Shown piece by piece: positions 33,671 through 53,983 of a stretch of 64,000 nucleotides of DNA (position 1 is its first letter; each line of letters begins with the position of its first letter). Where the stretch lies: NCBI RefSeq assembly GCF_001262015.1, contig NZ_CP012075.1:992001-1056000 (forward strand), written 5' to 3'. The DNA is from Prevotella fusca JCM 17724 (lineage in GTDB: Bacteria > Bacteroidota > Bacteroidia > Bacteroidales > Bacteroidaceae). Below the pieces are notes generated by a model. That model saw only the letters and a list, made by a program, of their open reading frames with translations, searched no databases and was not told where the DNA came from. The position numbers were made by a program, and so were the translations under genes.

Positions 33671-34863
33671 TGACCTGTTGCTTTTATATTAATTCCTCCT
33701 TTACTTTCTCCTCGAGCATCATTTATCTTCTCAATAATCTCCTTATATAAGTCATTCTCCTTTTTATTCATACCCCATTCTATACCATTACTTATCAAAG
33801 ACGCAGCAATACCCACTCCAAATTTCTGTGCATTCAACTTGGTAAACAAATTCCTACTTATTTCTTTCCCCATATTCTTTGCAGTATTTCTTGTAAAACA
33901 ACTCCAAATGCCACGAGTCATTACATTACCACTCACCACTTCTTCTAAGCCCCAACGACTAAGCGTACCAAGAGTTTGACGATTACTGCCTATTACAGGG
34001 ATTGCTGCTTCGCCAGCAGTTAATCCCCCTCCGATGGCCATGTCTCGCCAAGTTTCTCTCGTCACTATGCCTCCGTCAGCTTCCAACTCAGCATCTTCCC
34101 CCCTTAAATATTTGCGAGCATACTCATGCTGATTCTGCATATTCTGATTACGGTAGTTATCATCGGCTCCCGAAACATAATCATACACTGCCAGCCCCGA
34201 GCCGATGATGAGACCTACTACATCCCCCAGCACCTGATGCCTTGAAGGCATTAGCAGCTGCTCCAACAAAACCTTGTGAAAGATTGGAATAGTAATTCAA
34301 CTCTAATATCTTCTTATTACTATCGCTGATCTTCTTTGACAGTTCAAGAGCTTTTTCATGACTCATCACCAGAGAGACAATCCCTCCTTTCTGACAGGTA
34401 AGGAAAGAACGTTCCAAAACCGCATTCGCTCCTTCTATATAAGCCTTGCGATGAAACAGCTCCCATGTCCCTCCCGTAGTACTGTCACACTCATGCTTTG
34501 CAAGTCTGCTTTCCGTTGTCTTATCAGCATAATACACTGCAGCTCCACCTAAAGCACCTGTGGCAATGACCGCTGCCGCAACGACTGCCGTGCCAGCTCC
34601 ACATGTCAGGACCGTCAGAGCCACAACGGCTGCGCCCAATGTCAGACCAAGAAGCAAGCCGCTAAGCCCATCATAATACGAAACTTTGATGCGACACTGC
34701 AACTGACAGGTTAATTTCTTGTCGCAGGTGTTGAGTAACGCTTTCTTTTCCTTGCCATACAAGGACCTTGGCTTTTCTTTCCGTCACGATTTGGCTGGGT
34801 AATGTAGACATCATTTCCGTACAAATAGCATTCAGACCCCGCAGGTATATATGATTGTATCAT
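33667..34863 (-). pseudogene. DUF4280 (PAAR-like) membrane protein, type A, frameshifted (copy 3)
   Basis: Almost the same as copy 1, but with three one-base insertions. One is the GGGG tract near the start (shared by copies 1-3), one is an extra G in AAGGACC near 34763, and one is a C5 instead of C4 near 34230. The last splits the protein between the helix region and the C-terminal half. The two halves are readable at 34181-34762 and 33667-34269. Either it is a true pseudogene or the homopolymer differences are sequencing errors; re-sequencing would settle it. Confidence 0.7.
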
Positions 34864-34920
34864 AACTTTTGTTTATGGAAAGACTGGATATATTTATCAG
34901 AAGAACAGGATTGGTAATAA

Positions 34921-35541
34921 TTACTTTTTACTCATGAACCTCCTTTCAAATTCCTCCTTCGGCATCTTATACTTTAAGTAGTTGATGACATTGTTCCGAT
35001 AAAACTTTTCTATAAAGACAGAATCGCTATCCTTGCCACTAAACCATATCGGTTCACTCACACCAACTGCTTTCAGTACGGGTACAGGATTGTCTTTTGT
35101 TCCATACACAGGATTATTCATATCGTCACGGTTGACTGTAAGATAAAGCTCTTTCTCTACATAACTCCCATTAACATCCTTAAATGCAATGATATTCATA
35201 AACTTCTTATACTCCTTACAATAGAAAGAAGTGTAATCAGCACTTGGGTTATTAAAAAAATCACGAGAGTCATAAGTTGTATCAAAAACTTCACTTAAAG
35301 GATACTTTTCATCATCAATGTTATTTAGATATAACTGTGACTCTTCTGGTGGCATTATTACCTTTATTGTATAACATTTATCCATATACTGTTTATAAAA
35401 TATTACTGCTTCGTTGTTATATTTATTCTTATAATATAATACATCAACAATCTTAGGCATCATCGGTACTATAAAACATGAACCTATCAGACTCCCGATA
35501 AGCACCCATGGAATAAAATGCGTATATTCTGTTATTTTCAT
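34921..35541 (-). CDS. Small membrane-anchored partner protein, type B (copy 5)
   Basis: Protein of 206 residues with an N-terminal helix (FIPWVLIGSLIGSCFIVPMMPKI), a middle domain sharing NPSADYTSFYCKEYKK with copy 3, and the type B tail (NNVINYLKYKMPKEEFERRFMSKK). It lies 2 bases after DUF4280 copy 4, matching that gene's type B C-terminal half. It is probably translated together with copy 4. Confidence 0.75.
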   Translation of the reverse strand: MKITEYTHFIPWVLIGSLIGSCFIVPMMPKIVDVLYYKNKYNNEAVIFYKQYMDKCYTIKVIMPPEESQLYLNNIDDEKYPLSEVFDTTYDSRDFFNNPSADYTSFYCKEYKKFMNIIAFKDVNGSYVEKELYLTVNRDDMNNPVYGTKDNPVPVLKAVGVSEPIWFSGKDSDSVFIEKFYRNNVINYLKYKMPKEEFERRFMSKK

Positions 35542-35543
35542 AT

Positions 35544-36857
35544 TTATAAGCTATTTGCTAAGATTGAGGTTTTAGTTTTATTATTTTTCCTTGCTTTCTT
35601 TATTTTATCAATCATACTTTTATATAACAGATTTTCTTCCTTATTATCTCCCCATTCTATATGATTATTCCACATAGCACCTAAAACGCCTATAGCCAGA
35701 CCTGCACCAATAAAAGCCCCATTATGGACATTATACTTAAACACACGAGTCCTACCAGTGAAAATCTCTTTAAAGGAATTAAGATTTACTCCCTGCTGCT
35801 TCCCCATCAATTCACCTGCCTTCCTGTAAGCTCCTTCTGCTGCCTCCTCGTTACCTGCTAAGATATATTTCAAAGCATTCTCATTTTGTTTCATGGATTC
35901 TTTTGCCAACTCATCGTTGCGTATTGTTACTGTTGCCACAACCTCAGTGCCAGCTCCAACAAGTCCTCCCCCTGACACAGAACCTACCGTTATTCCGTCT
36001 GAGCTCGTCAGAACACTATGGTCTGTTTTCATTGACGTCTGGTCATCGTCTTTTTCAAGTGCTGATTTCGCATACGAATTTTGTTTCCGGACATTACTAT
36101 CACGAAAGTTCTCAACATCACTGGTACAATAGAAGTAAACTGACAGCCCGGAACCTATTATCACTGCTATCGCAGACCCGGCAGCCTGTCCCTGGAAACC
36201 TGCAAGCAACGCATTAGAGACATTGCCTATGAATCCCTGCTTGATCTTTGACCACGCATTTACATTACTAATCTCATTGTTTGTCTTGCTTATCATTTGC
36301 GCTAACTCTAAAGCCTTGGCATGGTCCATAACCAATGTCACGACACCGCCTTTACTGCAAGTAAGCATTGAAGGCTCCAAAAGGGCATTATGCCCCTCGA
36401 TCTTAGCCTTTCCATGGAACATCCCCCACTCTCCAGTAAGCGAATCATCACATTCGTTGGCTAAGTATTTGTAAGTTGCAGCCGCACCATAGGATGCCGC
36501 TCCTCCCACAAACAAAGCCATTGAGGCTGCAAAAGCTACATTTGTAGCCGTTGTTGCAATAGCCGCTGCTGCACCAACCACTGCTGCACCAGCTCCCGCT
36601 GTAGCTATTACAAATGCAACAACCAAAGCTCCAGCAGCAAGACCAATGAGCAAGCCACCAAGTCCAGAAAAGAATGTCTGTTTGATACGACATTGTAACG
36701 AGCAACTCAACTTCTTGTCACAAGTATTCAGCAAAGGCTTTTTCTCTTTGCCATACAAGACCTTAGCTTCACGTGTGAGTCCTAATTGTGCCGGAACTCC
36801 TCCTGTCATCTCCGTGCAGATAACATCTGTTCCGGCAGGTATATATGATTGTGCCAT
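35544..36857 (-). CDS. DUF4280 (PAAR-like) membrane protein, type B (copy 4, intact)
   Basis: Protein of 437 residues and the only copy whose start is in frame. MAQSYIPAGTDVICTEMTGG and VLYGKEKKPLLNTCDKK form the first part of a DUF4280/PAAR-like domain with several Cys. Then come two hydrophobic Ala/Gly-rich blocks (about 66-125), the second DUF4280 part (HGKAKIEGHNALLEPSMLTCSKGGVV, about 150-175), another helix (about 205-235) and the type B C-terminal half. The layout, with membrane segments inserted in a PAAR-like domain, suggests a delivered membrane-active effector. No catalytic motif was recognised. It is 2 bases from the gene upstream. Confidence 0.78.
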   Translation of the reverse strand: MAQSYIPAGTDVICTEMTGGVPAQLGLTREAKVLYGKEKKPLLNTCDKKLSCSLQCRIKQTFFSGLGGLLIGLAAGALVVAFVIATAGAGAAVVGAAAAIATTATNVAFAASMALFVGGAASYGAAATYKYLANECDDSLTGEWGMFHGKAKIEGHNALLEPSMLTCSKGGVVTLVMDHAKALELAQMISKTNNEISNVNAWSKIKQGFIGNVSNALLAGFQGQAAGSAIAVIIGSGLSVYFYCTSDVENFRDSNVRKQNSYAKSALEKDDDQTSMKTDHSVLTSSDGITVGSVSGGGLVGAGTEVVATVTIRNDELAKESMKQNENALKYILAGNEEAAEGAYRKAGELMGKQQGVNLNSFKEIFTGRTRVFKYNVHNGAFIGAGLAIGVLGAMWNNHIEWGDNKEENLLYKSMIDKIKKARKNNKTKTSILANSL

Positions 36858-38954: not shown

Positions 38955-39323
38955 TTATTTCAAAAGTGCTTCGAGGGCAGCAGGGAAGTTCTTAGCTTTT
39001 GCCTTCAAGTTCAGAAGCAGTGCTTTCTCTGTTTCGTCTACCTGACCATCACCGCTGATCTTCTCAGACAGCATCTTGACTTCTTCCTCGTCAATCTCAC
39101 CGTCTGCGAGAATGTTATCAGAAACAGCCTCAACGAAGAACTCCTGCCACTCAGGAGCATTGTCCTTACCGGAAACAGCATCGTTGAGCTCAAATAGGAA
39201 TTCAACTTCTTCTGCATCGATTACGCCGTCAGCATAGAGTACTTCACGGAGCTGTGCTACCTCTTCCTTGTCGATTACACCGTCAGCGAGAAGGTTTTTC
39301 TTCAATTCTTCTAATTTTCCCAT
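38955..39323 (-). CDS. TerB-like acidic protein
   Basis: Protein of 122 residues, strongly acidic, all helical. Four copies of a D-G-x-[IV]-D-x-x-E motif are visible: ADGVIDKEEV (about 14), ADGVIDAEEV (about 31), ADGEIDEEEV (about 73) and GDGQVDETEK (about 90). They are arranged as two TerB-type repeat pairs with EF-hand-like metal-binding potential. TerB domains belong to tellurium-resistance-type stress modules and bind metal ions. It has its own terminator but faces the same way as the TerD-like and tubulin/actin genes 0.5-11 kb upstream, so I include it in that cluster. Confidence 0.75.
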   Translation of the reverse strand: MGKLEELKKNLLADGVIDKEEVAQLREVLYADGVIDAEEVEFLFELNDAVSGKDNAPEWQEFFVEAVSDNILADGEIDEEEVKMLSEKISGDGQVDETEKALLLNLKAKAKNFPAALEALLK

Positions 39324-39850: not shown

Positions 39851-40015
39851 TCAAATAAATAATTCTCTATAAATGGCGAGACCGATAAAAACGCCAGCCA
39901 AGATGCGGCATAACATAATCAATGCCTTGCGGTCAGATTTCTTTTTGATACGTCCATTGATGACGATGGGTGCAACAATCCACAGGACTAAAGCGAGAAT
40001 TATATATATCAACAT
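39851..40015 (-). CDS. Small membrane protein (54 residues)
   Basis: Starts MLIYIILALVLWIVAPIVI, one membrane helix, then a basic loop NGRIKKKSDRK and a second helix (IMLCRILAGVFIGLAIY). It has clean codon structure and a proper stop, and sits 77 bases after the wall-binding protein gene in the same direction. It is probably the last gene of the operon and a minor membrane subunit. No homolog family was recognised. Confidence 0.65.
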   Translation of the reverse strand: MLIYIILALVLWIVAPIVINGRIKKKSDRKALIMLCRILAGVFIGLAIYRELFI

Positions 40016-40092
40016 GATAGTCTTTTTTTATTTGAGGGTGTACCCATTGATGACAATTACGGTACACCCTCATGAATAACATTGTAATGGTA

Positions 40093-40779
40093 TTAATGAA
40101 CCTCACCTTTCCGGTACATCTCGTTAACGCGTTTCTGAACTTCCGCATAGCGAGAGCCGAGTTTGTGCTTGCGTGTCACACCATTACCATAAGTCCCTTT
40201 GATGACGTCATTAGCCGTCTCCTGAACTGAACCGGCAGGCTCTGTCATTGTAGGCTCTGTCGTGGCTGATGTGCCGTGATTACCAGCAGAAGCAACCTGC
40301 TTGTCCGTTGCAGCATTGGCAGCGGTGTTTACGTCCGGGGCGTTGTCTGAAGAAACAGGAACTTCGCCGTCTGAATTGTTTTCAGAAGCATTCTTGCTGC
40401 TTGCCTTTCCAGTTACATTCAGCCCGTTGGTATCAGTTTCCGCCTTAGTTGCAGAGTCAGCCTGTGCTGTCTGTGTAGTATCTTTCCGTACACCAGTACT
40501 GTCGGTAGCGACTGCAACAGCAGTATTCCCGGATTCATTTCCCTGACTGCTGTATAGGTAATAGCCACCACCAAGAAGAGCTACAAGGACAGCTGCCACC
40601 AGCCACTTCTTTCCGTTTCCGCCTCCCTTGCTGCCAACGGTCTCGTCTGATGGCGTAGACGGTGGCGGTACTGGAGTAGGTTCCGGCTGCTTCACCTTTG
40701 GAGTAATCCCATCTTCGGGTTTCTCTTCCGGTTGAGGAGTCTTTGTCCTCAGTGTAACTTTTCTTTTAATTTCAACCAT
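40093..40779 (-). CDS. Bitopic membrane protein with C-terminal Cpl-7-type wall-binding motif
   Basis: Protein of 228 residues. The N-terminus MVEIKRKVTLRTK shares a KRK[VI]TLRxK motif with the TerD-like protein encoded upstream. A Pro-rich cytoplasmic segment (about 15-50) is followed by one membrane helix (WLVAAVLVALLGGGYYLY, about 58-75) and a Ser/Thr/Asn-rich periplasmic linker. The final 36 residues (VIKGTYGNGVTRKHKLG, then YAEVQKRVNEMY) match the Cpl-7/CW_7 pattern YGNG-R-LG-Y-VQ-VN found in peptidoglycan-binding lysin domains. It should link a cytoplasmic TerD-type assembly to the cell wall. Confidence 0.75.
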   Translation of the reverse strand: MVEIKRKVTLRTKTPQPEEKPEDGITPKVKQPEPTPVPPPSTPSDETVGSKGGGNGKKWLVAAVLVALLGGGYYLYSSQGNESGNTAVAVATDSTGVRKDTTQTAQADSATKAETDTNGLNVTGKASSKNASENNSDGEVPVSSDNAPDVNTAANAATDKQVASAGNHGTSATTEPTMTEPAGSVQETANDVIKGTYGNGVTRKHKLGSRYAEVQKRVNEMYRKGEVH

Positions 40780-40785
40780 AATATA

Positions 40786-41364
40786 TTAGTTGCAGATGAT
40801 TGAGAAACCAGGAATCTCGTCGAAGGCAGTGCCAAGATCCATTACACGGCTCTCGTTCTTGAGGGCATATTCACCTTCGTTGTTCTTGATAGAACATACA
40901 CAGTAAACATGACCTTCGTCAGTAGAGTCAGCCAGTACCTCAAGGTAATCGCCAGAGTCGCTCTGAAGTTCAACACGACCACCCTCTTCAGCGTAAGTTA
41001 CATCAAGCTGGTCAATGGCAGCCTTATAGTTAACGATGCAGACGAAAGCCTGCTCAATCTCGTCAAGACTGGCAATGTTAATCTGTTCAGTCTCCTCATT
41101 GCCCTCGGCAGGTTCCTTGTTGTCGCCTAAGTGAAGCATGAACGGGAACTTATCCAGTGCACCGAGGTCACTCCTCTTGCCACGATATTCGTTAGAGAAG
41201 ACGCCACCGACTTCGCCATTCTTCTTCTTGAAAAACAGGCAAAGGTCCAGGTCAGTATCTGATGTCCAGAACAGCTTTACTTTCAGCTTGCCTGAGAATG
41301 TGAATGCGCACTCCTCCTGCTTTCTGCGAAGAGTGATCTTTCTCTTTAATGTTACTTCTGCCAT
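40786..41364 (-). CDS. TerD-like protein
   Basis: Protein of 192 residues with an N-terminal KRKITLRRK motif, then a beta-sandwich resembling TerD. LKVKLFWTSDTDLDLCLFFKKK (about 28-49), LHLGDNKEPAEGNEETEQINI (about 80-100) and AFVCIVNYKAA correspond to TerD's DLD, GDN and DD/E-rich Ca-binding elements. TerD-family proteins bind calcium and act in tellurium and phage/colicin stress systems, often membrane-associated. Length and order fit. Genes 6 bases downstream and 36 bases upstream belong to the same operon. Confidence 0.75.
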   Translation of the reverse strand: MAEVTLKRKITLRRKQEECAFTFSGKLKVKLFWTSDTDLDLCLFFKKKNGEVGGVFSNEYRGKRSDLGALDKFPFMLHLGDNKEPAEGNEETEQINIASLDEIEQAFVCIVNYKAAIDQLDVTYAEEGGRVELQSDSGDYLEVLADSTDEGHVYCVCSIKNNEGEYALKNESRVMDLGTAFDEIPGFSIICN

Positions 41365-41400
41365 AACTACTAATTCTTTAAATGTTATTGTATATGAATA

Positions 41401-43905
41401 TTAAAAATTAAAATCGTCACTGGTACTCCTTACCACCCTGCTTGTTTCTGTCTTGTGCCTGGAAGGAGATACGTCCATGTCGAAGAAGTCATCCTCGCTG
41501 TTTGGTGTAGCAGGTGATGCCATCTGAGGTTTTGATTTGGGAGCAGGCGATATGTTTTTTTCATTGCCAAAGAAATCATCTTCCGACTGTCTTGTCTGTG
41601 AATCGAAGTCGTTGTCCTCATCAGGTTCATTGCCCTGAAACAACGAATCTTTCTTTGCATACTGCTTGTCAAATGCTGTTTCAGCATCGAATATCTGTTT
41701 GAACAACAGTTTCATCTCACCCTTATGGTCAGGGTATCTCGCCTGTAAGTCGGATAAGAGTTCTCTTGCTTCATCCCACTTTTTATCTACTATGAAGTCT
41801 TTTACCTCATAGATGCCTTGCTTATAGTTCTCTTCAGCCTGTAGGACAGCAAGTTTTTCCTCGGCACGACGGATGTTCAAACGGAGGTTTTCATCTTCCC
41901 GTATTCTTAGTGCTTCCTTGCCAAGCGACACAACTTCTGCCCAGTTCTCCATGAATAAGGCTGAATCAATCTTGCGTTTTATCGTCTGCCACTTCTCTTC
42001 TTCTTTGGCAAACTCCACCTTAGCAGTCTTCAGTCTTTCAACCTTTTCCGTCCATTTTCGTTGGTTGGGAGTGTCGGTGTCTATGAGTTCGTTGCATGTC
42101 GCAATAGCAGCATCGAAGTCTTTTGAATCTTCAGCCTCTTGGTATTGCCGTATGAGTTCAGCAATCTGCTGGTCATGTACCTCTTGTATCTGTTCAATCT
42201 GCAGGATTCTTTCCTGTGCATCTTTGTTCTCACTGTCAAAGGATTGCACCTTCTTCAGTTCCTCAAGTGCCTCCTTGTATGATTTCTGTGCAAGGAACAT
42301 GTCAGCACGGGTCAGATACTTCTCTATCTGTGCCTGTGAGTCAATCTGTTTTCTTGCAATCTGATGGATTCTGTCAGCCTCTTTGGAATTAGGCATCAGG
42401 TTCAGGGCTGCATCACTTTGCGACAGCGCATCCTGCCATTGCTTTTCTTCAAGACTCTTCTGTGCCCTTTGAATGATACTCTTGTATTGCTCTTCCTTCA
42501 CCTTCTTCTCGGAGAGGAGACGGGTTGCTTCAGCCTTCTTCTGACGGGCTTCCTGGTCGTCAGGATTGTGCTGAAGGGCGATGTCAGCCCAGTCAGACAT
42601 CTGTGCATAGTCCTGCTTCTTCTCATAGTCATAAATATTAGCCAACGCTTCTTTGTATTTATTTTCTGATTCGTGAGCAGCTTTGTCCTTTGCTTCCTGC
42701 TCAGCCCTTTTCCGTTCAGCTTCCAGTCGTCTTGCTTCCTCTTCCTGTGCAAGTTTCAGCCTCTCTAACTCTGTTGCGCCATTGGCGATAGCCATCTGTG
42801 TTGCCTCGGAGAACTGGCTGCAGTCCATGATGGAATAGACTGCAACGATATGGGGGAGGTCAGAATCCTTATAGAAGATATACTTGTCCTCTGACAATAA
42901 ATACCGTTCCTTGATGGCTCTGATGAACTGTTCGTTTGTAAATGTGTTTCCCAAGAACATGACACCCTTGACCTTGTCGTTAGGGATGTTCAGGTTCTTG
43001 ACGAATGTTGTTATTTCCCTGACAATGTCATCCACGATGACATGTGTGCGTGTGTCGATCTCCTTCTTCAGAACAGTAGTGTCATAGATGTTAGGAAGTT
43101 GGGAGAATCTGACATTCGTGATGGTAATCGGACGTCCTGGTATAGCATCTTCCAGCTTCTCTATCCACTGGTCAGCGAACTGTCCAAGACGGAGATATTC
43201 CCTTTCGTAATCCTGTTCTGAATCAAGAAAAAGCTCTCTCTGATTGATACTCTTGACCACCTTCTCAAGTAAAGCCCTGCTTCTGAGGTCAGTACCCATG
43301 CCTTTCAAGGCATCTTCTGCTTTTCTTAACAGGATGTTATCTGTATGTTCATATACAGAATAACTCAGGTTTTCGTTGCAGGCATTGAGTAGCAGATAGA
43401 ATCCGTCTTCCTCATACTGCCCCCTTCTGAAGGCATGTTCCAGTGCAAGCTGTCCGATACGGGCAACCGATTCTTTTACTACGAAATTGTTTTCTTCCAA
43501 TACCGACTGCAGGAAGACAAGGCGGGCTGCATCTGAAATGTCCTTCGAGAAAGAGATGTATGTATCAATCTCTCCGGGCTTTTCATCAACCGCAGATCTT
43601 AACTCATCCAGGATGCCGGATGTGTAGAATATCTTGTACATTTCCTGTTTTCTTCCATATCTCATGAAAGAAGCAGTGGAATCTGGAATCAGATCAAAGA
43701 CATTACCATAATAGTGATTGTCATTGTTGTGGTAATGTTGTTTGTTATCTTTACCATAGACAATGGTATCATTAGCTACATCTTCATAGAAGTATAACCA
43801 GAAACGATTTTCTCCATTGGAAGGAGTAATGAGATGTGGTACACCATCGACGCAGACTGCGCCGATGATATACCATTTATCTATGTATAAAGTAAGAACC
43901 TTCAT
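41401..43905 (-). CDS. Degenerate actin-like/TPR scaffold protein
   Basis: Protein of 834 residues. The N-terminal ~370 residues look like a divergent actin/Hsp70 fold: KVLTLYIDKWYIIGAVCVDG at the start, and VKGVMFLGNTFTNEQFIRAIKERY at about 310 where the adenosine motif is expected. Phosphate-binding loops are degenerate. A charged coiled coil (about 385-420) and TPR-like helical repeats (about 420-740) follow. An acidic tail repeats the short motifs SEDDFFGNE, SEDDFFDMD and SDDFNF. It probably acts as a scaffold that docks partners through the DDF-type tail motifs. Its stop lies 36 bases before the TerD-like gene. Confidence 0.6.
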   Translation of the reverse strand: MKVLTLYIDKWYIIGAVCVDGVPHLITPSNGENRFWLYFYEDVANDTIVYGKDNKQHYHNNDNHYYGNVFDLIPDSTASFMRYGRKQEMYKIFYTSGILDELRSAVDEKPGEIDTYISFSKDISDAARLVFLQSVLEENNFVVKESVARIGQLALEHAFRRGQYEEDGFYLLLNACNENLSYSVYEHTDNILLRKAEDALKGMGTDLRSRALLEKVVKSINQRELFLDSEQDYEREYLRLGQFADQWIEKLEDAIPGRPITITNVRFSQLPNIYDTTVLKKEIDTRTHVIVDDIVREITTFVKNLNIPNDKVKGVMFLGNTFTNEQFIRAIKERYLLSEDKYIFYKDSDLPHIVAVYSIMDCSQFSEATQMAIANGATELERLKLAQEEEARRLEAERKRAEQEAKDKAAHESENKYKEALANIYDYEKKQDYAQMSDWADIALQHNPDDQEARQKKAEATRLLSEKKVKEEQYKSIIQRAQKSLEEKQWQDALSQSDAALNLMPNSKEADRIHQIARKQIDSQAQIEKYLTRADMFLAQKSYKEALEELKKVQSFDSENKDAQERILQIEQIQEVHDQQIAELIRQYQEAEDSKDFDAAIATCNELIDTDTPNQRKWTEKVERLKTAKVEFAKEEEKWQTIKRKIDSALFMENWAEVVSLGKEALRIREDENLRLNIRRAEEKLAVLQAEENYKQGIYEVKDFIVDKKWDEARELLSDLQARYPDHKGEMKLLFKQIFDAETAFDKQYAKKDSLFQGNEPDEDNDFDSQTRQSEDDFFGNEKNISPAPKSKPQMASPATPNSEDDFFDMDVSPSRHKTETSRVVRSTSDDFNF

Positions 43906-43912
43906 TTAATGA

Positions 43913-46900
43913 TTACTGATTAAACGCTTTCTTTATTAATGTTTCCAAGAAGCAAGCGCCTTCTGCAATGATGATTGGCTGATGGTAAGTGAACACATCG
44001 CCCTGAATCTTCCGGGCTTTGCGATACTCATCATCATTGTTGCAGATGTAGCTTGTGATTCTGTTCGGGAGGTCTGCAAGGTCCTCTCGCAAATTGTCTG
44101 CCTGTGGGTAGAGACGGGTCTTCTGACTGACGAAATCAATGAATATCTCCATGAATTTCTCAAAGTTGGCAATGCCTGAGAAATCAAATTTATTCATCTC
44201 ATTTGCAAAATACTCGCCAGTAAGCTCATCTTCTGTATGAAGTTCCTTGGGAGTACCATCACTCATAATATACTTGACGCCCGTTTCGCCACAGATGTCT
44301 GCATCTGCTTCCTGTTGTTTCCTTATGTGCTCCTTGGGGTCGACAAGTCCCTTGGCAACCTCAGCCTTGTTGTCAATTTCAATCTCATCACGGTATCTGA
44401 CTTCCAGTGTCTTTTCGGTAACTAAGTTTACACCGGCATTAAGACAGTTCTCGTAGTACTCATTTGTCAACCTTCGGGTTGCTGAACTTCTGAGCCAATG
44501 GAACAGCCTACCGCCCTTACCGAATGAAAGCACATCAATTCTGTTGATATGATTCATGTGTTCGGTCTTTATTGCCTTACCGATCAGCATACCTGAATAG
44601 AAGAGCAGGAGACCTGTCACATAGGCAGGGATGGTAAAGACGAACTTTGCATTGTTATTGATTGAAGAATAGAATTCCTCATAATCATTCTCTGACCTTA
44701 ACTGGTCAAAGATGCTGTTCAGATAGTAAGGAGCCTTTGACGGCTGGGTCAATACTTCCTTGATATTGGCAACAAAGACATTGGTCTTCTTGCCTTCATG
44801 GAAGTTGACCAAAGCCTGGCGGAAAGACTCGGACTTGATAACAGCATTGAAGAATACGCCGGCAGCTATGCGGACAGAACTCTCCCGATAGAGGGAAGAC
44901 TTGTTGCCGTTGTCAGGGTCCTTTGCAAGGAGCAGGATGTCACTGGTACTGCCGCCGACATCAATTCCCAGGAACATATTGTCTTTGTTCAAGCCAAAGT
45001 CCCGTGAGAGTGCAAAGCTGCAGACAGCTTCAGCCTCGGTGGTGAGTTTCTCACTTGGTTCCGGGCGGCGTCCAACTGTAATAGGCGTCATCTTGCAGAG
45101 CTCCTCAAAAATCTTCTCAAGTTCAGCACGGTCAGCCTCCATCATAGAACCGGGATAACTCCATTTAAGTTCTTCCGGTCGTATTCTCTCCTCCTTGTAC
45201 AGGTATGCACAGGTCTGTAGCCAGATGGATTTCAAGAAAGCACGCTTCTTCTGCAGCCCCTTCTCATTATCCAGCCACTTCATGTTATAGTGCAGTGTGC
45301 CAGCCTGGGTCTTGATCTCATACTGGTCCATCTCCTTCACAAAGACGTTAGGTCTGTTTACAGGAACACCACCGGCTATTTCCTCTGATTCATTGTAGCA
45401 GTTGTATCTTGAATCATGTTCATGAAGCCACGACTTGACCTGTCCGTTGTCGGATGTGTAATTCGCAAAGAACAGGAGTTCATTGTTCTCAGCAATAGAA
45501 CGAACATCATTGTTCTCCTTGCCGACAAGCACCGTTCTGTAGTTTCTGAACTCAACAGGGTTCGCACCTCTGTCGTCCGGGTTGTAATAAACGCAAGTGT
45601 TGTTGCTGCCGAAGTCCACGCCAACAATGGCTGACCCCTTGAGGTCAATAGTGGTTTTATCACCAATTACCTCCTGTCGGAAGATCAGATAGCCGGCATG
45701 AACATCTTTGCCTGTGTCTTTTACAAAGGCTGAAAGTCCTGCCAAAGGCTTGTCCGCACTGATGATGTTGTACTTAGGCAGGTCTTCACCTTGCCCAGCC
45801 GGATAGGTGATGAGCTTCTTGATGTCAATCAGCTTGTCTTCATCAGCAGAAGGCTGATAGTCGCCTGTCCAAAAGTTGTTATCTATCGTCCTTACAAATT
45901 CACCTTGCCACTTGAAGACAGGTTGGAATTGTTCCTGCGCATCTGCGGTAAACTCTGAATAAAGATAATATTTGTTCCATTTCTCTGAGACGAAGTCCGG
46001 CCACATGATCACCTTACCCTGGTCAGTCATCCAGTCAATTTCGTACTCACGGGTGTTCAGTGTAACCTTCTGTCCGTCAATCTCGACAATCAAAGTGACA
46101 GCCAACTGACCAGCATCAGTAATGACACCGGTAAGTGAGGTGTTCCCACCATCAGAATAACCCAGCAAGCCACGCAGGTTATTCTTGAAGATATCTATAC
46201 CTCTTTCTGATAATGGAAGTGTGAAGTAGCTCATGCTTCCATCCCTCAATTCCTTGACCCGCAGATAGAATACTGGTCCGTCAGAAAGTTTCGGACGTGC
46301 GTTGGCATCCTCAGCCCATCCTATGACAAACTTATCCTCGCTGAGCAGGTTCTGAATATCTCCGATGAGCTTATAGTCTCCGTCATTTGTATAAGTGAAG
46401 GTGTAATCCGGCTTCAGATACACAGGCACATCGCTCATGAAAAGGAGAGAGAACGGACACTCCAGGTTGCCATACTTGGCAATCGGTCCCTTGTCGCGAA
46501 GATTTCCGCCTCCACGGTACAGCAGTTCCTGTTCCCACTTGCGGCTCATCTGCTTGAACCCACCGATATTCATCAACTGCTTGTCGCCTCTTTGGGAATT
46601 GATTTTCTTCTCAAAGGCTTCAAGGTTACCATTCATATTCTTCATGAACAGGTAAACTTTCTGCAACTGGTCAGGTGAAAGGAAGGCGGTAGGGTCCTCA
46701 AACTTACCATCACGATACCAGTTGATGTCACTGGCATCATCACCGAGGCTGGCATAGCTGACACCCGTGAATACTCCCGTCATTGGCGAAGTACCGCCGA
46801 CCAGATGGTCACGATAGTAGATGAGGTGAATATAGGGCTGTACGTCCGGACTTTTAGCAAGCACATCCTGATTACTCCAGACATCCTTGTCCTCGAAAAG

Positions 46901-47299
46901 CATCCGGCCGAATGCTGCTGCAATATCGTATCCATTGCCCCTTACGTTCATCTCTACAGGGTTTGAGAAACGAATACGGTCCGGGAACAGTGCGATGACT
47001 GCCAACAATCCTCTCCACTCACCGTGAAGCATATCGTAGAACTGCTGCAAGCCTGAAATGTTGATGTTCGGGTCTGGGTTCGCCAGCGTCTGCAAGGCAA
47101 ACTTGAAGAGCTTTGCCCGTGCCCACGGTGTAGGAACACCCGAAATGAGTGCGCCGAGCTTCTCGGCAGTCAAACCCTCCAGAATCTTTCCTGTTTCAAT
47201 ACCTTGTATGTAGGACGATGCCATGTTAAGCTCGTTCCACTGACCTTGAGTTCCTGTTGTCAGGTTGGTATAACTCTTTATCAATAATGCTTTTGACAT
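43913..47299 (-). CDS. Large actin/Hsp70-like ATPase (SrfB-like)
   Basis: Protein of 1128 residues, much longer than Hsp70. About 555 N-terminal residues form an unknown, probably beta-rich region. Then comes an actin-type ATPase domain: phosphate-1 loop VGVDFGSNNTC (560-569), phosphate-2 loop LGIDVGGSTSD (777-787) and an adenosine-like SFGKGGRLFHWL near residue 935. The layout resembles the SrfB virulence-factor family; I give this only as a likeness. It lies 7 bases from the scaffold gene and 10 from the tubulin-like gene, so a joint complex is likely. It could polymerise or act as a switch. Confidence 0.72.
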   Translation of the reverse strand: MSKALLIKSYTNLTTGTQGQWNELNMASSYIQGIETGKILEGLTAEKLGALISGVPTPWARAKLFKFALQTLANPDPNINISGLQQFYDMLHGEWRGLLAVIALFPDRIRFSNPVEMNVRGNGYDIAAAFGRMLFEDKDVWSNQDVLAKSPDVQPYIHLIYYRDHLVGGTSPMTGVFTGVSYASLGDDASDINWYRDGKFEDPTAFLSPDQLQKVYLFMKNMNGNLEAFEKKINSQRGDKQLMNIGGFKQMSRKWEQELLYRGGGNLRDKGPIAKYGNLECPFSLLFMSDVPVYLKPDYTFTYTNDGDYKLIGDIQNLLSEDKFVIGWAEDANARPKLSDGPVFYLRVKELRDGSMSYFTLPLSERGIDIFKNNLRGLLGYSDGGNTSLTGVITDAGQLAVTLIVEIDGQKVTLNTREYEIDWMTDQGKVIMWPDFVSEKWNKYYLYSEFTADAQEQFQPVFKWQGEFVRTIDNNFWTGDYQPSADEDKLIDIKKLITYPAGQGEDLPKYNIISADKPLAGLSAFVKDTGKDVHAGYLIFRQEVIGDKTTIDLKGSAIVGVDFGSNNTCVYYNPDDRGANPVEFRNYRTVLVGKENNDVRSIAENNELLFFANYTSDNGQVKSWLHEHDSRYNCYNESEEIAGGVPVNRPNVFVKEMDQYEIKTQAGTLHYNMKWLDNEKGLQKKRAFLKSIWLQTCAYLYKEERIRPEELKWSYPGSMMEADRAELEKIFEELCKMTPITVGRRPEPSEKLTTEAEAVCSFALSRDFGLNKDNMFLGIDVGGSTSDILLLAKDPDNGNKSSLYRESSVRIAAGVFFNAVIKSESFRQALVNFHEGKKTNVFVANIKEVLTQPSKAPYYLNSIFDQLRSENDYEEFYSSINNNAKFVFTIPAYVTGLLLFYSGMLIGKAIKTEHMNHINRIDVLSFGKGGRLFHWLRSSATRRLTNEYYENCLNAGVNLVTEKTLEVRYRDEIEIDNKAEVAKGLVDPKEHIRKQQEADADICGETGVKYIMSDGTPKELHTEDELTGEYFANEMNKFDFSGIANFEKFMEIFIDFVSQKTRLYPQADNLREDLADLPNRITSYICNNDDEYRKARKIQGDVFTYHQPIIIAEGACFLETLIKKAFNQ

Positions 47300-47309
47300 A
47301 GCTTCCCGA

Positions 47310-48926
47310 TTAATTAAACTTATACAACTTTGCTAATGTGTCGAAAATCAACTTGTACAACTGCTCACCCTTGTTCGTGAGGTTCTGCCAGTCCTTTGAA
47401 CTGTCACGTTCCTGTATAAACTGTTTCTTGAACGGGTCGAACTTTGAACGGAATCCGATAATACCGCTCTTGCTGTATTTGTTGTCCTTGCCGATACCTT
47501 CGTTTCTGTAGATACACTCATTCCAGTCCATGTTCATCAGCTCCTTGAAGGTCATGGGTGAGAACAGGTTGGCATTAAAGAGGAAGCTGTCCTGACCGCC
47601 TGCCGAACGGTGAATCTGCCGGAGCCAGCCTTCCTGCAGCTTGTCGGCAACCCGTTTCACGAAGAACAGACGAAAATAGTTCTTCAGACTTGTAGCCTGG
47701 GTAATGTCCATCTCTATAAACTCCTGGATTTCCTTCTGTCCGCCAGCTCTTGTGCTTTCCACGAAGTCATCCTCTCCATTGCAGAAGAGGGAGAAGGCTA
47801 TCAGCATACCGAACTTACGGGCAAACTCCTTGGCTCTCTCTTTGCCGACGAAGTCTTCAAAGTCAAGTTTGCCACTTTCATTGACTGCACGGTACTGATA
47901 ATCGGTCTTGTGCAGGTTCTTGTTCTGCTGTAGCTCGTTCTCATCAGAATTGTAGAAGTCGAGCGCAGCACATGCCGCAAGCAGTTCTATGTAGTGGGAA
48001 TCATTCTTCTGCTGCTCGCCACCAGTAATGGTTTCAGATATCGTGTCAGCCTTTCTCTGCATCGGGTCCCAGTTGAGGCTGCTGGTACCCATCATATAGA
48101 ACTTCTGATAGGTACTCTTTACCGTAGCATCATCATCGTAGAACATCATCGCAACCTGTGAGTTAAGCGCAAACTTGTCACTCGTTGCGATAATCTTCTG
48201 ATTGTCCAGCTCACCGCCACTTGGGGCCCTGAAGCTGAAGTAGGCTGTAAGCAGGGTAGAACCGAAGTACGCACTCTTGAGAACATTGGCTGCACCGTTG
48301 CTCATTATCTCTGCAGCCTTTGAGATTGCCTGCGGGATGATAGGAATGGATGAAGCCCCCGTTCCTCCGAACACCGAGCCGAGGATGAACACTCTCGGCT
48401 GACCATTCTGTGAAGCCTTGATGAGCTCGCTGAGAAACAGCTTCAATTCACTGCTTGCCTGCGACTCTGCTGCTTCAAGGATTGAATGGTACATCATCAT
48501 CGAGCCCAGATGGGTCTGTGCACGGTAGCCATGACGCAGATTGAAGTCTTCGACATTGTCAGACAGCACGAGGTCTGCCAGATCGGTCTCTTCTCTATGG
48601 TTATATTGCGTATCACCATAGTTGAACACCGCCTTGAAGGTACTCTTCTGCTCGTAGTTCGGGCTGAACTCGTAATATTTTATGTTGGCTGAGAAGAAGG
48701 AGTTGTTCAGTGACACTCTGCTTGCCTTGTCCTGTCCTTTTGCATTGCAGTAGGCATCCTTTACTTCCTTCAGCCGTGAGAAGTTACCGTTGTTTTTGTC
48801 AGTATCAAGTGCCAGCAGATGGATGTCTGTGTCATCAAACATACCCATGGCACACAGGTGGATAAGCGACTCTATGCATCGCATTCCGGTTCCACCAATA
48901 CCGAGTACGAAAAATTGTCTTGCCAT
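47310..48926 (-). CDS. Tubulin-like GTPase (Tubulin_2-type)
   Basis: Protein of 538 residues. The N-terminal nucleotide-fold start MARQFFVLGIGGTGMRCIES has the Gly-rich loop (9-17). The tubulin signature GSVFGGTGASSIPI (183-196) corresponds to the GGGTGS/T loop of tubulin/FtsZ. A C-terminal half without the FtsZ tail follows. Such proteins occur outside cell division in conflict and envelope loci. The distance between the loops (about 175 residues) is longer than in FtsZ, typical of the Tubulin_2 group. Next to an actin-like ATPase gene, this is a rare pairing of both cytoskeletal folds in one operon. Confidence 0.75.
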   Translation of the reverse strand: MARQFFVLGIGGTGMRCIESLIHLCAMGMFDDTDIHLLALDTDKNNGNFSRLKEVKDAYCNAKGQDKASRVSLNNSFFSANIKYYEFSPNYEQKSTFKAVFNYGDTQYNHREETDLADLVLSDNVEDFNLRHGYRAQTHLGSMMMYHSILEAAESQASSELKLFLSELIKASQNGQPRVFILGSVFGGTGASSIPIIPQAISKAAEIMSNGAANVLKSAYFGSTLLTAYFSFRAPSGGELDNQKIIATSDKFALNSQVAMMFYDDDATVKSTYQKFYMMGTSSLNWDPMQRKADTISETITGGEQQKNDSHYIELLAACAALDFYNSDENELQQNKNLHKTDYQYRAVNESGKLDFEDFVGKERAKEFARKFGMLIAFSLFCNGEDDFVESTRAGGQKEIQEFIEMDITQATSLKNYFRLFFVKRVADKLQEGWLRQIHRSAGGQDSFLFNANLFSPMTFKELMNMDWNECIYRNEGIGKDNKYSKSGIIGFRSKFDPFKKQFIQERDSSKDWQNLTNKGEQLYKLIFDTLAKLYKFN

Positions 48927-48932
48927 GATGAA

Positions 48933-49319
48933 TTACTTTTTTTCTTTACCAAGAATTGAACCAAACTTTGAGTGACGGAATACAAACATCAGCGCAATAC
49001 TTGTAACGAGATACACGCCGAGGTTGATACCGATACATTTGAGGTTGCACGTCCTGAGCATATTCTGGAAGCCGATGTTACGGATATGTGACATAACAAC
49101 CAAATCATTGTACAGCCAGAAGCCCAGTACGGCAATGATGGCTATCACGACGAAGGCGATGCGTCGCTTGATGTAGGAACGGTCATTGCCACCCTCCCAC
49201 GGGAACATGTTTGACAGAAGTAAGGCTACGAGAACTGCTACGAGGCCTACAATAACAGCATAGATCATTGTGCTGTTCATCAGCTGGTTAAGCTGGGAGA
49301 TGTTAGTTACAGGAGTCAT
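48933..49319 (-). CDS. Three-helix membrane protein of the cytoskeletal operon
   Basis: Protein of 128 residues with helices at about 17-37 (MIYAVIVGLVAVLVALLLSNM), about 52-72 (IAFVVIAIIAVLGFWLYNDL) and about 97-115 (GVYLVTSIALMFVFRH). The C-terminus is basic (ILGKEKK). I recognise no family. It is wedged between the lipoprotein and tubulin-like genes (18 and 6 bases), so it may anchor the GTPase to the inner membrane. Confidence 0.75.
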   Translation of the reverse strand: MTPVTNISQLNQLMNSTMIYAVIVGLVAVLVALLLSNMFPWEGGNDRSYIKRRIAFVVIAIIAVLGFWLYNDLVVMSHIRNIGFQNMLRTCNLKCIGINLGVYLVTSIALMFVFRHSKFGSILGKEKK

Positions 49320-49337
49320 ATCTTGATAGTTTTTAGT

Positions 49338-50753
49338 TTATCGTTCGTTGGATTTCACGTAAATCGTATAGACAGGGCAGGTGCTGATCATCGCCTTGAT
49401 GTCAGGGTCAGTCAGGCACTGTTCCACGCTTGCTGCCACCGATACATTCTGGTTGCCCGGCATGTCAATGCTGTCAAAGGTGAACATAGGCTTATGTTGT
49501 GCGAACATAGGTTCTACCTGGGACACACAGATGTCAATCTTGAAATAGTTGTATGGGGAACCGTTCAGCACCGGGTCAGGATAGTAGTTCTGCGTGTCAA
49601 AGTGCAGGTTTATCTTGCCGTGGTCGCTGAATTCCTTTGGGTCAATCTTTACGAAGTTCTCACACTCAGCAGGCTGAATCTTCGGTGTGGGCTTCTGCTT
49701 CCCATCCTTGGCGCAATAGAAGTCAAAGTATTCCTGGTTGATATTGTACACCTTGGCTGATACGTCAGTTATACGATAGCCGCCGAAGCTGTTTCTGTCT
49801 ATTCTCCAGCCCGAGATGAAGGGTTCTCCGTCAGGGAGCGGCTCACCCGTGTTGGGGTTTACGGCATTGACAATCAGCGGCTCTATTCCGTCTTTCCAGT
49901 CAATTTCCCAGTCCTGTACTTCGTAGTCGCCGATGCCGGGAGAAACCTTTGCATTAAGGTGCTGGTTGGGCTCCGTTGTCTGTGCATTCTTTGACATCAG
50001 CTGCGGATGGTCAGCAGACAGATGGAAAACTTCAACCTGTGGGAACTGGTCAAGGTTGACTGTCTGCATGATGCGTTCATAGATGTTTCCCTTCAGCCTC
50101 CAGTCTGTGAACAGGATGTAGAAGCGTTTTTTATTGAAATTCTGCCCCTTATAGGGTTCTACGTAAGGTTCTGACAGTATATAGACGTCATGTCCTTTCT
50201 TCAGCCACGTCTTCAGGGCATTTGCCATGTAAGGGTTGTTGATGTTTCCTTTGGCGATTGACGGCTGGAAATATTCACCGTCAGTAAGGAGTACCGACTC
50301 ATTGTTTTCATTCGCCATGCGTTCTGCTGCCGTCTTCAGGTCAGCATAGTCGGTCTCGTTGATATTGCGAAGGAGCAGGAAGGTGGAATCCGGCCGATGC
50401 TGCCGGATCTTGTTGCCCTCAATGGAATAATACTTCCGGGTAGCGTCAGTCCACGATGGAACCAATGCCTGGAAGAAGGGAGAATTCTGACCTAACGAAA
50501 TACATTTTGAACAGTCAACGTACAGGGACAGCTGGTCGCGGGAGATCTCATCGATTCCTTTGTTGAAATATTTTTGATGAAATTCCGGAATGTACTTCGT
50601 GTCTGAAGCAGTAGGTATGCTGGAGCTGCATGAGTTCAAACTGATAATGCCAAAGAAGCCTGCAGCCATCCAGGCAAGTGTTTGTGTCGTTGTTCGTAGT
50701 TTACGTTTGAGCTGATCGCCATGGACCAATTGATTCTTCCAATCGTTAATCAT
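49338..50753 (-). CDS. Lipoprotein with vWA-like domain
   Basis: I take ATG 50753 (MINDWKNQLVHGDQLKRKLR) over the in-frame ATG at 50777. The protein has 471 residues and a long N-region before a signal helix with lipobox SLNSC (Cys42). The mature part starts with an Ala/Ser linker; then LYVDCSKCISLG and LLTDGEYF resemble the D-x-S-x-S and T-D-G metal sites of a von Willebrand A domain (about 90-240). A beta-rich second half with Cys follows. It is the first gene of the cluster and probably its outer-membrane or periplasmic face. The vWA call is moderate. Confidence 0.6.
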   Translation of the reverse strand: MINDWKNQLVHGDQLKRKLRTTTQTLAWMAAGFFGIISLNSCSSSIPTASDTKYIPEFHQKYFNKGIDEISRDQLSLYVDCSKCISLGQNSPFFQALVPSWTDATRKYYSIEGNKIRQHRPDSTFLLLRNINETDYADLKTAAERMANENNESVLLTDGEYFQPSIAKGNINNPYMANALKTWLKKGHDVYILSEPYVEPYKGQNFNKKRFYILFTDWRLKGNIYERIMQTVNLDQFPQVEVFHLSADHPQLMSKNAQTTEPNQHLNAKVSPGIGDYEVQDWEIDWKDGIEPLIVNAVNPNTGEPLPDGEPFISGWRIDRNSFGGYRITDVSAKVYNINQEYFDFYCAKDGKQKPTPKIQPAECENFVKIDPKEFSDHGKINLHFDTQNYYPDPVLNGSPYNYFKIDICVSQVEPMFAQHKPMFTFDSIDMPGNQNVSVAASVEQCLTDPDIKAMISTCPVYTIYVKSNER

Positions 50754-52064: not shown

Positions 52065-53006
52065 TTATTTCCAGCTCTTCTCTATTAATTTAGTAACGGA
52101 GCTGTTGGTCATATGCACTCCCATCCTGTTTGTATTTACATCCGAGCTGTATTCGGTAGGCCAACCAGTGTTGAGGAGTTGGATGTTAGTAGTTCCGTTG
52201 ACATCCATTGTTGCCATACCAATTTCCTTCATCCTGTCCCAGTGTGTCTCCACCTGTGCTATCATCAGTTCAAGGTTTTCTTCTGCACCGACTTCCTTCA
52301 TCTTGTCAATGATAAGAGCTTTTACGTCGTCTTCTGTCATATTGCTGCTAATCTTCCCAACGATGTTGAGTGCGTTAGCCTTCTTGGTAAGTTCGTAGGT
52401 AACAGTAGCTTTTATATCCTGTATATCCTTGTTCTCTTTGTAACCATTCTTGAGGGTCTTACCAAAAAGATAGAAGAAAGTGCTGTTCTCGACCGACTCA
52501 ATAAAAGATTCTTTTGTAAGTTTGTTTTTCAGGGTCGTAATAGCCTTGATCTTCGGCATTGCCTTCTCAATTTTAGGATTGGCATTGTAGACGGAGTCAA
52601 GAAGAGCTATCTCAAACCTGCTTATCTTTGACAGTACCTCGTCATAATTCAAGAGGTCATTTATCTTTCCGTTTGCATCCGTCTTTACAATCATCGGGAC
52701 ATTGTCAAGGTATTGGCTCACCATGTTTCCTGTCTGCCGTGCAATCGCCTGACTGCCTTCTATCTTAATACTGTTTGTCAGTATCTCAACAACATAACCA
52801 TCAGCCGTAGCCTCTTGTACAGTTATCTTTGTTTTGCTGGTTGTCTTTACGCTTTCAGTACCTTTCGCAGAAGACTTGGTTTTAACATCAGCCACGGTTT
52901 CATAGACGGCTTTATCGCCTTTATGGAACTTAGCTTTGATTAAAGTCTGGGCGTTCAAGGCTGTTACAGCGAGAAGTAAGGCAAAAGTAATGAGTGATTT
53001 TCTCAT
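52065..53006 (-). CDS. DUF6263-family secreted protein (copy 2)
   Basis: Protein of 313 residues with a signal peptide (MRKSLITFALLLAVTALNAQ). The mature protein is a beta-rich single domain starting LIKAKFHKGDKAVYETVADVK and ending VTKLIEKSWK. Such proteins are secreted or periplasmic in Bacteroidota, function unknown. It is a tandem duplicate of the gene upstream (41-base gap), with near-identical signal peptides and moderately diverged middles. The terminator follows it. Confidence 0.8.
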   Translation of the reverse strand: MRKSLITFALLLAVTALNAQTLIKAKFHKGDKAVYETVADVKTKSSAKGTESVKTTSKTKITVQEATADGYVVEILTNSIKIEGSQAIARQTGNMVSQYLDNVPMIVKTDANGKINDLLNYDEVLSKISRFEIALLDSVYNANPKIEKAMPKIKAITTLKNKLTKESFIESVENSTFFYLFGKTLKNGYKENKDIQDIKATVTYELTKKANALNIVGKISSNMTEDDVKALIIDKMKEVGAEENLELMIAQVETHWDRMKEIGMATMDVNGTTNIQLLNTGWPTEYSSDVNTNRMGVHMTNSSVTKLIEKSWK

Positions 53007-53047
53007 AATAGCATTATTGTTTGATTCGTAAATTCATGCATAACGGA

Positions 53048-53983
53048 TTATTTCCAGCTCTTCTCCAGCAATTTAGTAACCGAGGTGATGGTCATATCCA
53101 TTCCCATCATCTTTGTTTTCACGTCCGTGCTGTATTCTGTTGCCCAGCCAGTGTCAAGGAGTTTAGTGGCAGAGGTGCCGTTGACATCCATCTTTGTCAT
53201 ACCCATCTGCTTCATTCTTCCCCAGTTGGCTTCCAGCTGTGAGGTCATGGATTCGTCAGCACCCATTTGTTTCATCTTGTCAATAACGAAGGCTTTTACA
53301 TCGTCTTCAGTCATGTTGCTCTTGATCTGTCCTGCAATGTTGAGTGCATTTGGCTCCTTGGTAAGCTCGTAGGTAACGGTAGTCTTTATGCCCTGCATAT
53401 CCTTGTTTTCTTTGTCACCGCTCTTGATAGTCTTGCCGAATAAGTGAAAGAAAGTGCTGTTCTCGACAGACTCAATAAACGCTTCTTTGCTGAGCTGGTT
53501 GCTGATGCCCATAGCCATCTTGTACTTTGGCATTGCTTTCTCCATTTCCGGATTGGCGTTATAGAGTGAGTCGATAAATGCCATTGCGAACTTGCTTGCC
53601 TTCGTTTGGACTTCAGTATAATTCAAAAGGTCCTTTACTTTTCCGTTTGCATCCGTCTTTATAAGCATTGGGACATTGTTAAGGTATTGGTTCAGCATGT
53701 TTCCTGTCTGCTGTGCAATCGCCTGACTACCTTCTATCTTAATACCGTTAGTCAGTATCTCGACAACATAACCATCAGCCGTAGCCTCTTGTACGGCAAT
53801 GTTTGTTCTGCTGGTTGTCTTTACGCTTTCTGAGCCACCACCCATAGGAGTGTTTATTTTAACGTCAGCCACGGTTTCATAGACCGCTTTATCGCCTTTC
53901 TGGAACTTAGCTTTGATTAAAGTCTGGGCGTTCAATGCTGTTACAGCGAGGAGTAACGCAAAAGTGATAAGTGTTTTTTTCAT
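53048..53983 (-). CDS. DUF6263-family secreted protein (copy 1)
   Basis: Protein of 311 residues: a signal peptide nearly identical to the downstream copy, and a beta-rich domain with YETVADVKINTPMGGGSE and GYVVEILTNGIKIEGSQAI. A Met-rich final third (KMMGMDMTITSVTKLLEKSWK) distinguishes it. It presumably arose by tandem duplication and shares a transcript with copy 2. Confidence 0.8.
   Translation of the reverse strand: MKKTLITFALLLAVTALNAQTLIKAKFQKGDKAVYETVADVKINTPMGGGSESVKTTSRTNIAVQEATADGYVVEILTNGIKIEGSQAIAQQTGNMLNQYLNNVPMLIKTDANGKVKDLLNYTEVQTKASKFAMAFIDSLYNANPEMEKAMPKYKMAMGISNQLSKEAFIESVENSTFFHLFGKTIKSGDKENKDMQGIKTTVTYELTKEPNALNIAGQIKSNMTEDDVKAFVIDKMKQMGADESMTSQLEANWGRMKQMGMTKMDVNGTSATKLLDTGWATEYSTDVKTKMMGMDMTITSVTKLLEKSWK

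Follow-up and report, generated by a model that had tools for sequence, protein, structure and literature searches.

A gene cluster of Prevotella fusca pairing an FtsZl1-family tubulin-like protein with an ASKHA-fold protein, and its possible role as an envelope-spanning stress system

Genes at the locus

The genome of Prevotella fusca JCM 17724 (3.26 Mb, two contigs) carries on contig NZ_CP012075.1 a cluster of minus-strand genes in which a tubulin-like protein of the FtsZl1/Tubulin_2 family is encoded directly upstream of a protein with a predicted actin/Hsp70-type (ASKHA) fold. The cluster lies in a stretch of 64,000 nucleotides (positions 992,001 to 1,056,000 of the contig), called here the window; coordinates below count from its first letter. 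Its genes are named A to I in the order of transcription. Four of them make up a conserved core: A encodes a lipoprotein of vWA-like type, B a small membrane protein, C the FtsZl1 protein and D the ASKHA protein. An Hsp70-like/TPR adaptor (E), a diverged TerD relative (F) and a wall-binding bitopic protein (G) form a clade-specific module downstream of it.

49338..50753, minus strand: A, vWA-like lipoprotein (a start at 50777 is also possible)
48933..49319, minus strand: B, small membrane protein (from its family, hydropathy and hhalign)
47310..48926, minus strand: C, FtsZl1/Tubulin_2-family tubulin-like protein of 538 residues (from PF13809 and the T1 and T4 loops)
43913..47299, minus strand: D, ASKHA (actin/Hsp70-type) protein of 1128 residues with an N-terminal extension of ~550 residues (from loops and predicted structure)
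41401..43905, minus strand: E, degenerate Hsp70-like N-terminal part, then TPR repeats and an acidic, DDFF-rich tail (from profiles)
40786..41364, minus strand: F, diverged TerD-related protein (from intermediate-family profiles)
40093..40779, minus strand: G, bitopic protein with a cytoplasmic tail bearing a TerD-start motif, one hydrophobic helix (placed by eye) and a CW_7 repeat (from Pfam)
39851..40015, minus strand: H, hydrophobic protein of 54 residues (from family members and dN/dS)
38955..39323, minus strand: I, TerB-like protein carrying DGxID repeats that resemble EF-hands, separated from H by 527 bases

An initial annotation, made from the letters of the window, had described eight closely spaced minus-strand genes here, with gaps mostly of 6-36 bases. 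All of these reading frames are present, and the gaps are 18 bases (A-B), 6 (B-C), 10 (C-D), 7 (D-E), 36 (E-F), 6 (F-G) and 77 (G-H). The ninth gene, I, and the Hsp70-like/TPR make-up of E were absent from that annotation.

The closest named relative of C is a Prevotella jejuni protein, at 90%. Against that species A to I give ratios of nonsynonymous to synonymous substitution (dN/dS) of 0.02-0.15, with 0.08 for H; these ratios are rough, dS (0.9-3.2) being saturated for most genes. A to H plus I are maintained genes, and their order is conserved across Bacteroidota. Promoter scans upstream of A found no start that stood out.

The core proteins

The lipoprotein A had initially been read as a vWA protein. 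Structure comparison (VIA) backs a vWA fold, with middling scores. The metal ion-dependent adhesion site (MIDAS) is partly degenerate; D88 and D166 are invariant and S90 is nearly so, and the second Ser, a Cys here, varies. A lacks the complete pattern (DxSxS...T...D). Searches found no sequence relative of A in PDB and no Foldseek match at E <= 0.001, and a Pfam scan of 25 members of its family gave one weak stray match. The small protein B belongs to a family of 65 members, whose relatives have 2-4 hydrophobic segments in a crude hydropathy scan. Its profile matches the small membrane protein upstream in a sister clade (hhalign E 2.8e-6).

The family of C is evident from records rather than from one direct score. 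In a direct scan C reaches 21.6 bits against PF13809, below the cut-off of 27 bits; PF13809.13 is carried by the precomputed record of a 100%-identical protein (P0001) and by many C homologues. The tubulin loops named in the initial annotation, GIGGTGMRC (T1) and GSVFGGTGAS (T4), were located in C. In an alignment of 17 sequences that includes the window's own, 18 of the 19 loop residues never vary. Judged by its sequence, C has the N-terminal FtsZ-like GTPase domain, with its GGTG loop, expected of FtsZl1/Tubulin_2. In most members of the family a long coiled coil and a helical C-terminal domain come after this domain. PDB searches with the single sequences of C and D, and with the C profile, returned nothing.

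In an alignment of 38 sequences, the window's own among them, the core residues of the D loops VDFGSNN and IDVGGSTSD vary little or not at all. The predicted structure supports an ASKHA fold in the C-terminal half (residues 554-1001), with nucleotide motifs present that we take to be phosphate-1, phosphate-2 and adenosine. This is the nucleotide-binding fold that the putative ATPase was expected to have. The tubulin-like and actin-like identities first proposed hold at the level of the two superfamilies, D by fold and C by family and loops. D shares its fold and nucleotide motifs with the bacterial actins and Hsp70 proteins (MreB, MamK, FtsA, DnaK). It differs from them in its extension of ~550 residues, which lies beyond the matched range, and in being nearly always paired with a tubulin-like gene. 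E and D gave no signal in hhalign (E 0.24), and are therefore not claimed as close relatives.

Conservation of the core

Loci were taken as the best 80 of 147 from a genome collection, one from a viral collection, and stretches from further genomes. Counts were made for 110 loci in six-frame stop-to-stop open reading frames with antisense artefacts removed; nine duplicate stretches (L021, L039-L041, L045-L049) were excluded, and a few near-identical loci remain. Here, the gene that immediately follows C on its strand is D in 98 of the 104 loci with enough sequence. B immediately precedes C in 90 of 103, and A stands no more than 2.5 kb upstream of C in 88 of 98; the three neighbours are all in place in 78 of 93. 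The order of the core genes is conserved well above chance in distant genomes.

Between the two big clades, hhalign relates each core protein to its counterpart, with E values of 3.6e-6 for A, 2.8e-6 for B, 6e-45 for C and 1e-29 for D. Of eleven control pairs, ten had E values of 0.07-0.82; the remaining pair, G with the small membrane protein, reached 0.001.

The pairing also holds at the level of whole genomes, where D was searched independently of C. Among 393 Bacteroidales genomes, 22 have both, one has C only, one has D only, and 369 have neither (23 with C, 23 with D; Fisher p = 9e-34, in genomes that are related). The genome with C only is 70% complete and that with D only is 83% complete. 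The search for D gave 32 genomes at E <= 0.001 and 23 at E <= 1e-10, the latter cut-off being set after a gap in the E values was seen; the nine matches dropped (best E 5e-5 to 8e-4) were short stretches of proteins of other sizes. In three draft genomes (G185, G186, G473) C and D lie on separate contigs, so the link between them is more than physical. Window-type A occurs in 11 of the 393 genomes, and ten of these are among the 12 with close-type C. The proposal that these genes would be found together across genomes is therefore borne out: they are kept together, in order, in many genera.

The downstream module

E joins two kinds of sequence. Pfam finds TPR in its family, plus weak HSP70 matches in 2 of 29 members (best E 0.0011), and its profile retrieves from PDB both TPR proteins and mortalin/DnaK (best Hsp70 E 0.0059). 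By eye, acidic motifs of DDFF type recur in the C-terminal tail (window 41401-41700) and in close relatives; these may be docking peptides.

The TerD-like nature of F, proposed initially, stands through its family and not through the window protein itself. F aligns with TerD-type members (hhalign E 2.2e-7, 93.5%), TerD (PF02342) is found in 5 of 21 aligned members of the F family (best 8.6e-63), and the mixed family profile matches the TerD structures 2kxt and 3ibz. Window F has no PF02342 match, and an alignment of window-type F alone finds no TerD in PDB. F is for this reason termed TerD-related, rather than a Pfam TerD member.

The Cpl-7-type motif seen in G is PF08230 (CW_7), well above its cut-off (47.9 against 25 bits, E 1.1e-12). 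H has a family of 14, window included; of the other 13, 11 lie downstream of G or I and two upstream of A. I has sub-threshold Pfam matches to TerB, DUF533 and EF-hand, and homologues in the same cluster in seven other loci. In locus L083 (19832-20740) the I homologue and a UPF0114 membrane domain (Pfam) form one fusion protein, and the L077 homologue (12651-13559), of equal length and similar sequence, appears likewise fused.

A motif shared by F and G

The cytoplasmic tail of G carries 1-3 copies of the start motif of the TerD proteins of the same locus. Two types were defined, K (LKKKVTLRxK) and N (FNLSK). The 36 loci with both F and G, window included, comprise 18 that are K in both, 15 that are N in both, three in which F, G or both are unclassified, and no mismatch. 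Close sister loci switch together: L079 is K/K against N/N in L082, and L077, L083 and L110 are K/K against N/N in L081 and L087. As background, the first 80 residues of other proteins hold the N motif in 26 of 1559 cases and the K motif in none. The patterns were, of course, set after inspection, with K loosened once, and the concordance is post hoc among related loci. Read from these sequences, either the G tail and TerD share a docking site, or the two genes travel as one cassette.

Exchange of modules

The core is not always followed by the same genes. Among 53 loci with E, 37 have TerD-family genes, nine a zinc-ribbon double-GTPase, three a kinase and four none of these; TerD and the double-GTPase occur together in no locus. 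The 37 TerD loci include 23 with at least two TerD copies, 35 with G and 19 with a P-type cation ATPase, and TerC-family genes lie near A or G in four loci. Each of the Pfam calls, for double-GTPase, kinase, TerC and P-type ATPase, is based on between one and three members.

In 24 loci of the sister clade (A2) the A-B-C-D core is present, and both TerD profiles found TerD in none of them. Here, 13 have a MotA-like gene and 11 a MotB-like gene, and one has a G-like match; no MotA- or MotB-like gene was found in the window cluster or in the 53 E loci. The MotB-like profile matches in PDB a MotB-related protein (1.8e-11), a chain of a ZorA-containing (ZorAB) entry (2.1e-6) and MotB (3.6e-4), and the plug Asp (DLMT) is kept in 9 of 11 of the proteins. 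The MotA-like profile matches ZorA, yet matches unrelated coiled coils more strongly. The stator reading therefore relies mainly on MotB and on a sub-threshold MotA_ExbB match. ZorAB/MotAB-like loci of this clade are L023, L027, L028, L031, L035, L036, L038, L052-L054, L056 and L057; in L057 the MotA-like gene alone is labelled.

In a quick tree built from 106 C proteins, module labels from the initial gene calls, before the six-frame recount, are clustered (34 changes against 58.8 in shuffles). They cluster, yet change often, so modules were probably swapped.

Distribution and genomic context

The cluster is patchy in its distribution. Any relative of C occurs in 19 of 151 genomes of the family, 23 of 393 of the order, 13 of 395 of the phylum and 30 of 120 of the genus; within the genus, close-type C is found in 4 of 120. 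Single-sequence tblastn matched C on five cyanobacterial plasmids and D on none. A profile search of two cyanobacterial plasmids placed D beside C on both, with 69 and 23 bits for an A-like gene, 207 and 189 for C, and 157 and 164 for D. Each of the two has the A-like gene (divergent in one), a small protein without a B-profile match, C and D. By these profile matches, both plasmids examined carry most of the core.

C had no match in 50,697 phage records, and the viral collection gave one locus (contig L139). A tyrosine-integrase-family gene lies upstream of A in L069, L070, L073, L087 and L139 (Pfam on L069), and the flanks include a few relaxase or conjugation genes. A metagenome-assembled genome (MAG) with the label Saccharibacteria has a C that matches one from Bacteroidales with full identity (L125 and L128); close relatives also occur in two MAGs that bear the labels Eubacteriales/Clostridia (L062, L071). 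These oddly labelled copies are probably mis-binned contigs.

The flanks also hold some proteins of defence families, such as pAgo and AbiL. The scan covered 143 of 144 unlabelled proteins of 150-1300 residues in the 37 TerD loci, with the first 25 families of each list and no control set; an enrichment in defence is thus not established. PADLOC, run on A-G and I, gave two weak matches only, of G to PD-T4-6 (E 1.4e-4, partly from a low-complexity stretch) and of I to PDC-S48 (E 0.008).

Two other groups of genes lie near the cluster in the window. Upstream of A (52065-53983) are two tandem paralogous proteins of ~312 residues with signal-like N-termini; Pfam, on the one scanned, gave no match, and the related loci have no homologue. 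Downstream (29185-36857), three DUF4280-like genes alternate with several genes for proteins of ~200 residues; one DUF4280 score is above the Pfam cut-off and two are just below. This array may consist of type VI-related effector cassettes.

Relation to described systems

The initial annotation knew of no described system with this set of genes, and in part this was too strong. Makarova and Koonin (2010, PMC2875224) described the tubulin-like family FtsZl1, with a Bacteroides caccae sequence in their alignment. They predicted operons in which it is joined by genes for vWA, OmpA, GTPase and kinase proteins, and put forward a role in membrane remodelling. OmpA, kinase and P-loop GTPase neighbours are described there as frequent and not obligatory. 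The cluster has the same tubulin-like family, and A supplies the vWA neighbour of such operons; in Pfam scans of A-G and I there is no OmpA, kinase or P-loop GTPase, and these are found in relatives. What differs is that an ASKHA protein is here the most constant neighbour, and that the window's clade adds a Ter/wall module (TerD, TerB, CW_7). The sections seen of PMC2875224 name no actin/Hsp70-like partner and no TerD, TerB or CW_7 protein, although its supplementary family table may list some of these families unnamed.

Among the papers listed in literature searches there was no later functional study of FtsZl1, and none on this gene set, an ASKHA partner, a TerD/CW_7 module, a stator variant or a tail motif. 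A study of FtsZ/tubulin origins from 2023 set the family aside, in the part seen, as divergent and sparse (PMC9871819). The ASKHA partner, the TerD/wall module, the stator variant and the tail motif appear new beside the sections seen of PMC2875224, where the kind of operon was already predicted.

Ter systems offer a second comparison. Like terZABCDEF and TerY-P, the cluster has a TerD relative and a TerB-like protein, with TerC in its relatives, and both typically include vWA proteins (TerY, PMC11090510). Unlike them, it has the diverged F and, instead of their other parts, tubulin-like and ASKHA proteins; Pfam scans of A-G and I found no TerC, TerY-type vWA, PP2C/phosphatase or kinase. The same genome has a separate locus (L145, G000:C2:1122001-1142000), ~70-80 kb past the window end and apart from the cluster studied, with three TerD genes (PF02342; 3523-13547) beside TerY-like vWA, phosphatase-like and kinase-like genes, as read from translations. 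TerY-P modules are hypothesised to be metal sensors, related ones defending against phage (PMC11090510). Ter systems are further proposed to sense signals and to build sub-membrane structures that exclude phage or xenobiotics (PMC7824862), which fits stress and defence readings alike; the sections seen of that paper treat TerD and FtsZ-like proteins as separate topics.

With Zorya, the cluster shares a wall-anchored membrane component next to cytoplasmic parts, and the sister clade has ZorAB/MotAB-like genes. Unlike Zorya, the window cluster lacks a ZorA/ZorB stator pair and has no other recognised Zorya part; A-G and I have no MotA/MotB match in Pfam and no Zorya match in PADLOC.

What the cluster may do

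Computation establishes the parts of the system, their folds or families, their co-conservation and the exchange of modules. The part list agrees with the one on which an envelope-spanning machine was first suggested: there is a lipoprotein, there are membrane proteins and a bitopic protein that binds the wall, and in the cytoplasm there are proteins of nucleotide-binding families. A system coupling a tubulin-like to an actin-like protein across the envelope would, as far as we know, be new.

The reading we favour, tentatively and with a little less than even confidence, is that the gene products make up a stress sensor-actuator, anchored in the wall and spanning the envelope, which would be a variant of the FtsZl1 systems found in Bacteroidota. 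From the parts we infer their localisation, a Ca2+ input, docking of TerD on G, a single nucleotide switch made of C and D, and an output. G would anchor the complex to peptidoglycan, with B and H holding it at the inner membrane. A would read the periplasm, perhaps via a divalent metal, and the TerD and TerB proteins would serve as Ca2+-responsive scaffolds docked on G through the shared tail motif. At the cytoplasmic face, C and D might form a nucleotide-switched polymer or clamp that acts upon envelope damage, for example by bracing, sealing or remodelling the inner membrane. In the sister clades, a ZorAB/MotAB-like ion-driven stator would replace the wall-anchored part. Such a replacement suggests that the input is a state of the wall and the membrane, be it mechanical or proton-motive.

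A broader form of this idea is possible, if doubtful. The locus would then be one example of a widespread envelope machine, built on two nucleotide switches, from the tubulin and actin/Hsp70 families, that act as a near-obligate pair and can be fitted with one of several sensing modules. In this clade that module would be the TerD/wall-binding one, responding to Ca2+; in others it would consist of ion-driven stators of ZorAB-like type, of double-GTPases or of kinases. The wall-binding protein would recruit its cognate TerD via a copied N-terminal strand motif, and the whole would probably be an alarm for envelope damage or phage.

The strongest rival, which we consider somewhat unlikely, is a Zorya-like system for anti-phage defence or contact conflict, where the wall-anchored module senses that phage perturbs the envelope and triggers the cytoplasmic tubulin/ASKHA pair as effector. 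Several observations speak for it: stators of ZorAB/MotAB type adjoin the same core in the sister clade, the distribution is patchy through family and genus, an integrase stands beside A in five loci, relaxase, conjugation and defence-family genes (pAgo, AbiL and others) are found in flanks, and Ter modules have been tied to defence (PMC11090510, PMC7824862). However, no nuclease or toxin effector was recognised in the operon, PADLOC gave its two weak matches only, the flank scan had no control set with which to establish enrichment, and the phage records gave no match. Membrane remodelling or vesicle formation, as Makarova and Koonin proposed for FtsZl1, has in its favour the family of C and operon types (vWA-like, GTPase, kinase, OmpA-like) that agree with theirs (PMC2875224). 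It is nevertheless unlikely. A reviewer of that paper remarked that an FtsZ-like protein in the cytoplasm has no direct contact of its own with partners in the periplasm, the polymerising surfaces of C are not established, and the TerD, CW_7 and stator links are judged a better fit to sensing than to constriction.

Two further accounts fare worse. The genes might form an operon for Ca2+ or metal homeostasis or tellurite-type resistance, with C, D and E as chaperone-like helpers of membrane transporters. The TerD, TerB-like, TerC and P-type cation ATPase neighbours would suit this, as would the Hsp70-like features of D and E. But no transporter was recognised in the window cluster, the core does without TerD in all 24 sister-clade loci, and the genome has its TerD locus elsewhere, which leaves this account quite improbable. 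That the genes are chance neighbours or decaying, with no joint function, finds some favour in their sporadic distribution; conserved order, genome-level co-occurrence and purifying selection make it very improbable indeed.

FtsZl1 proteins were introduced in 2010 as tubulin relatives without an assigned function. In Bacteroidota and on two cyanobacterial plasmids its near-constant partner is an actin/Hsp70-type protein, which gives a concrete, testable pair, and the interchangeable wall-linked modules hint at its input. If C and D do cooperate, this would be a rare case of a tubulin-like and an actin-like protein working together in one bacterial device, here in bacteria of the gut and mouth.

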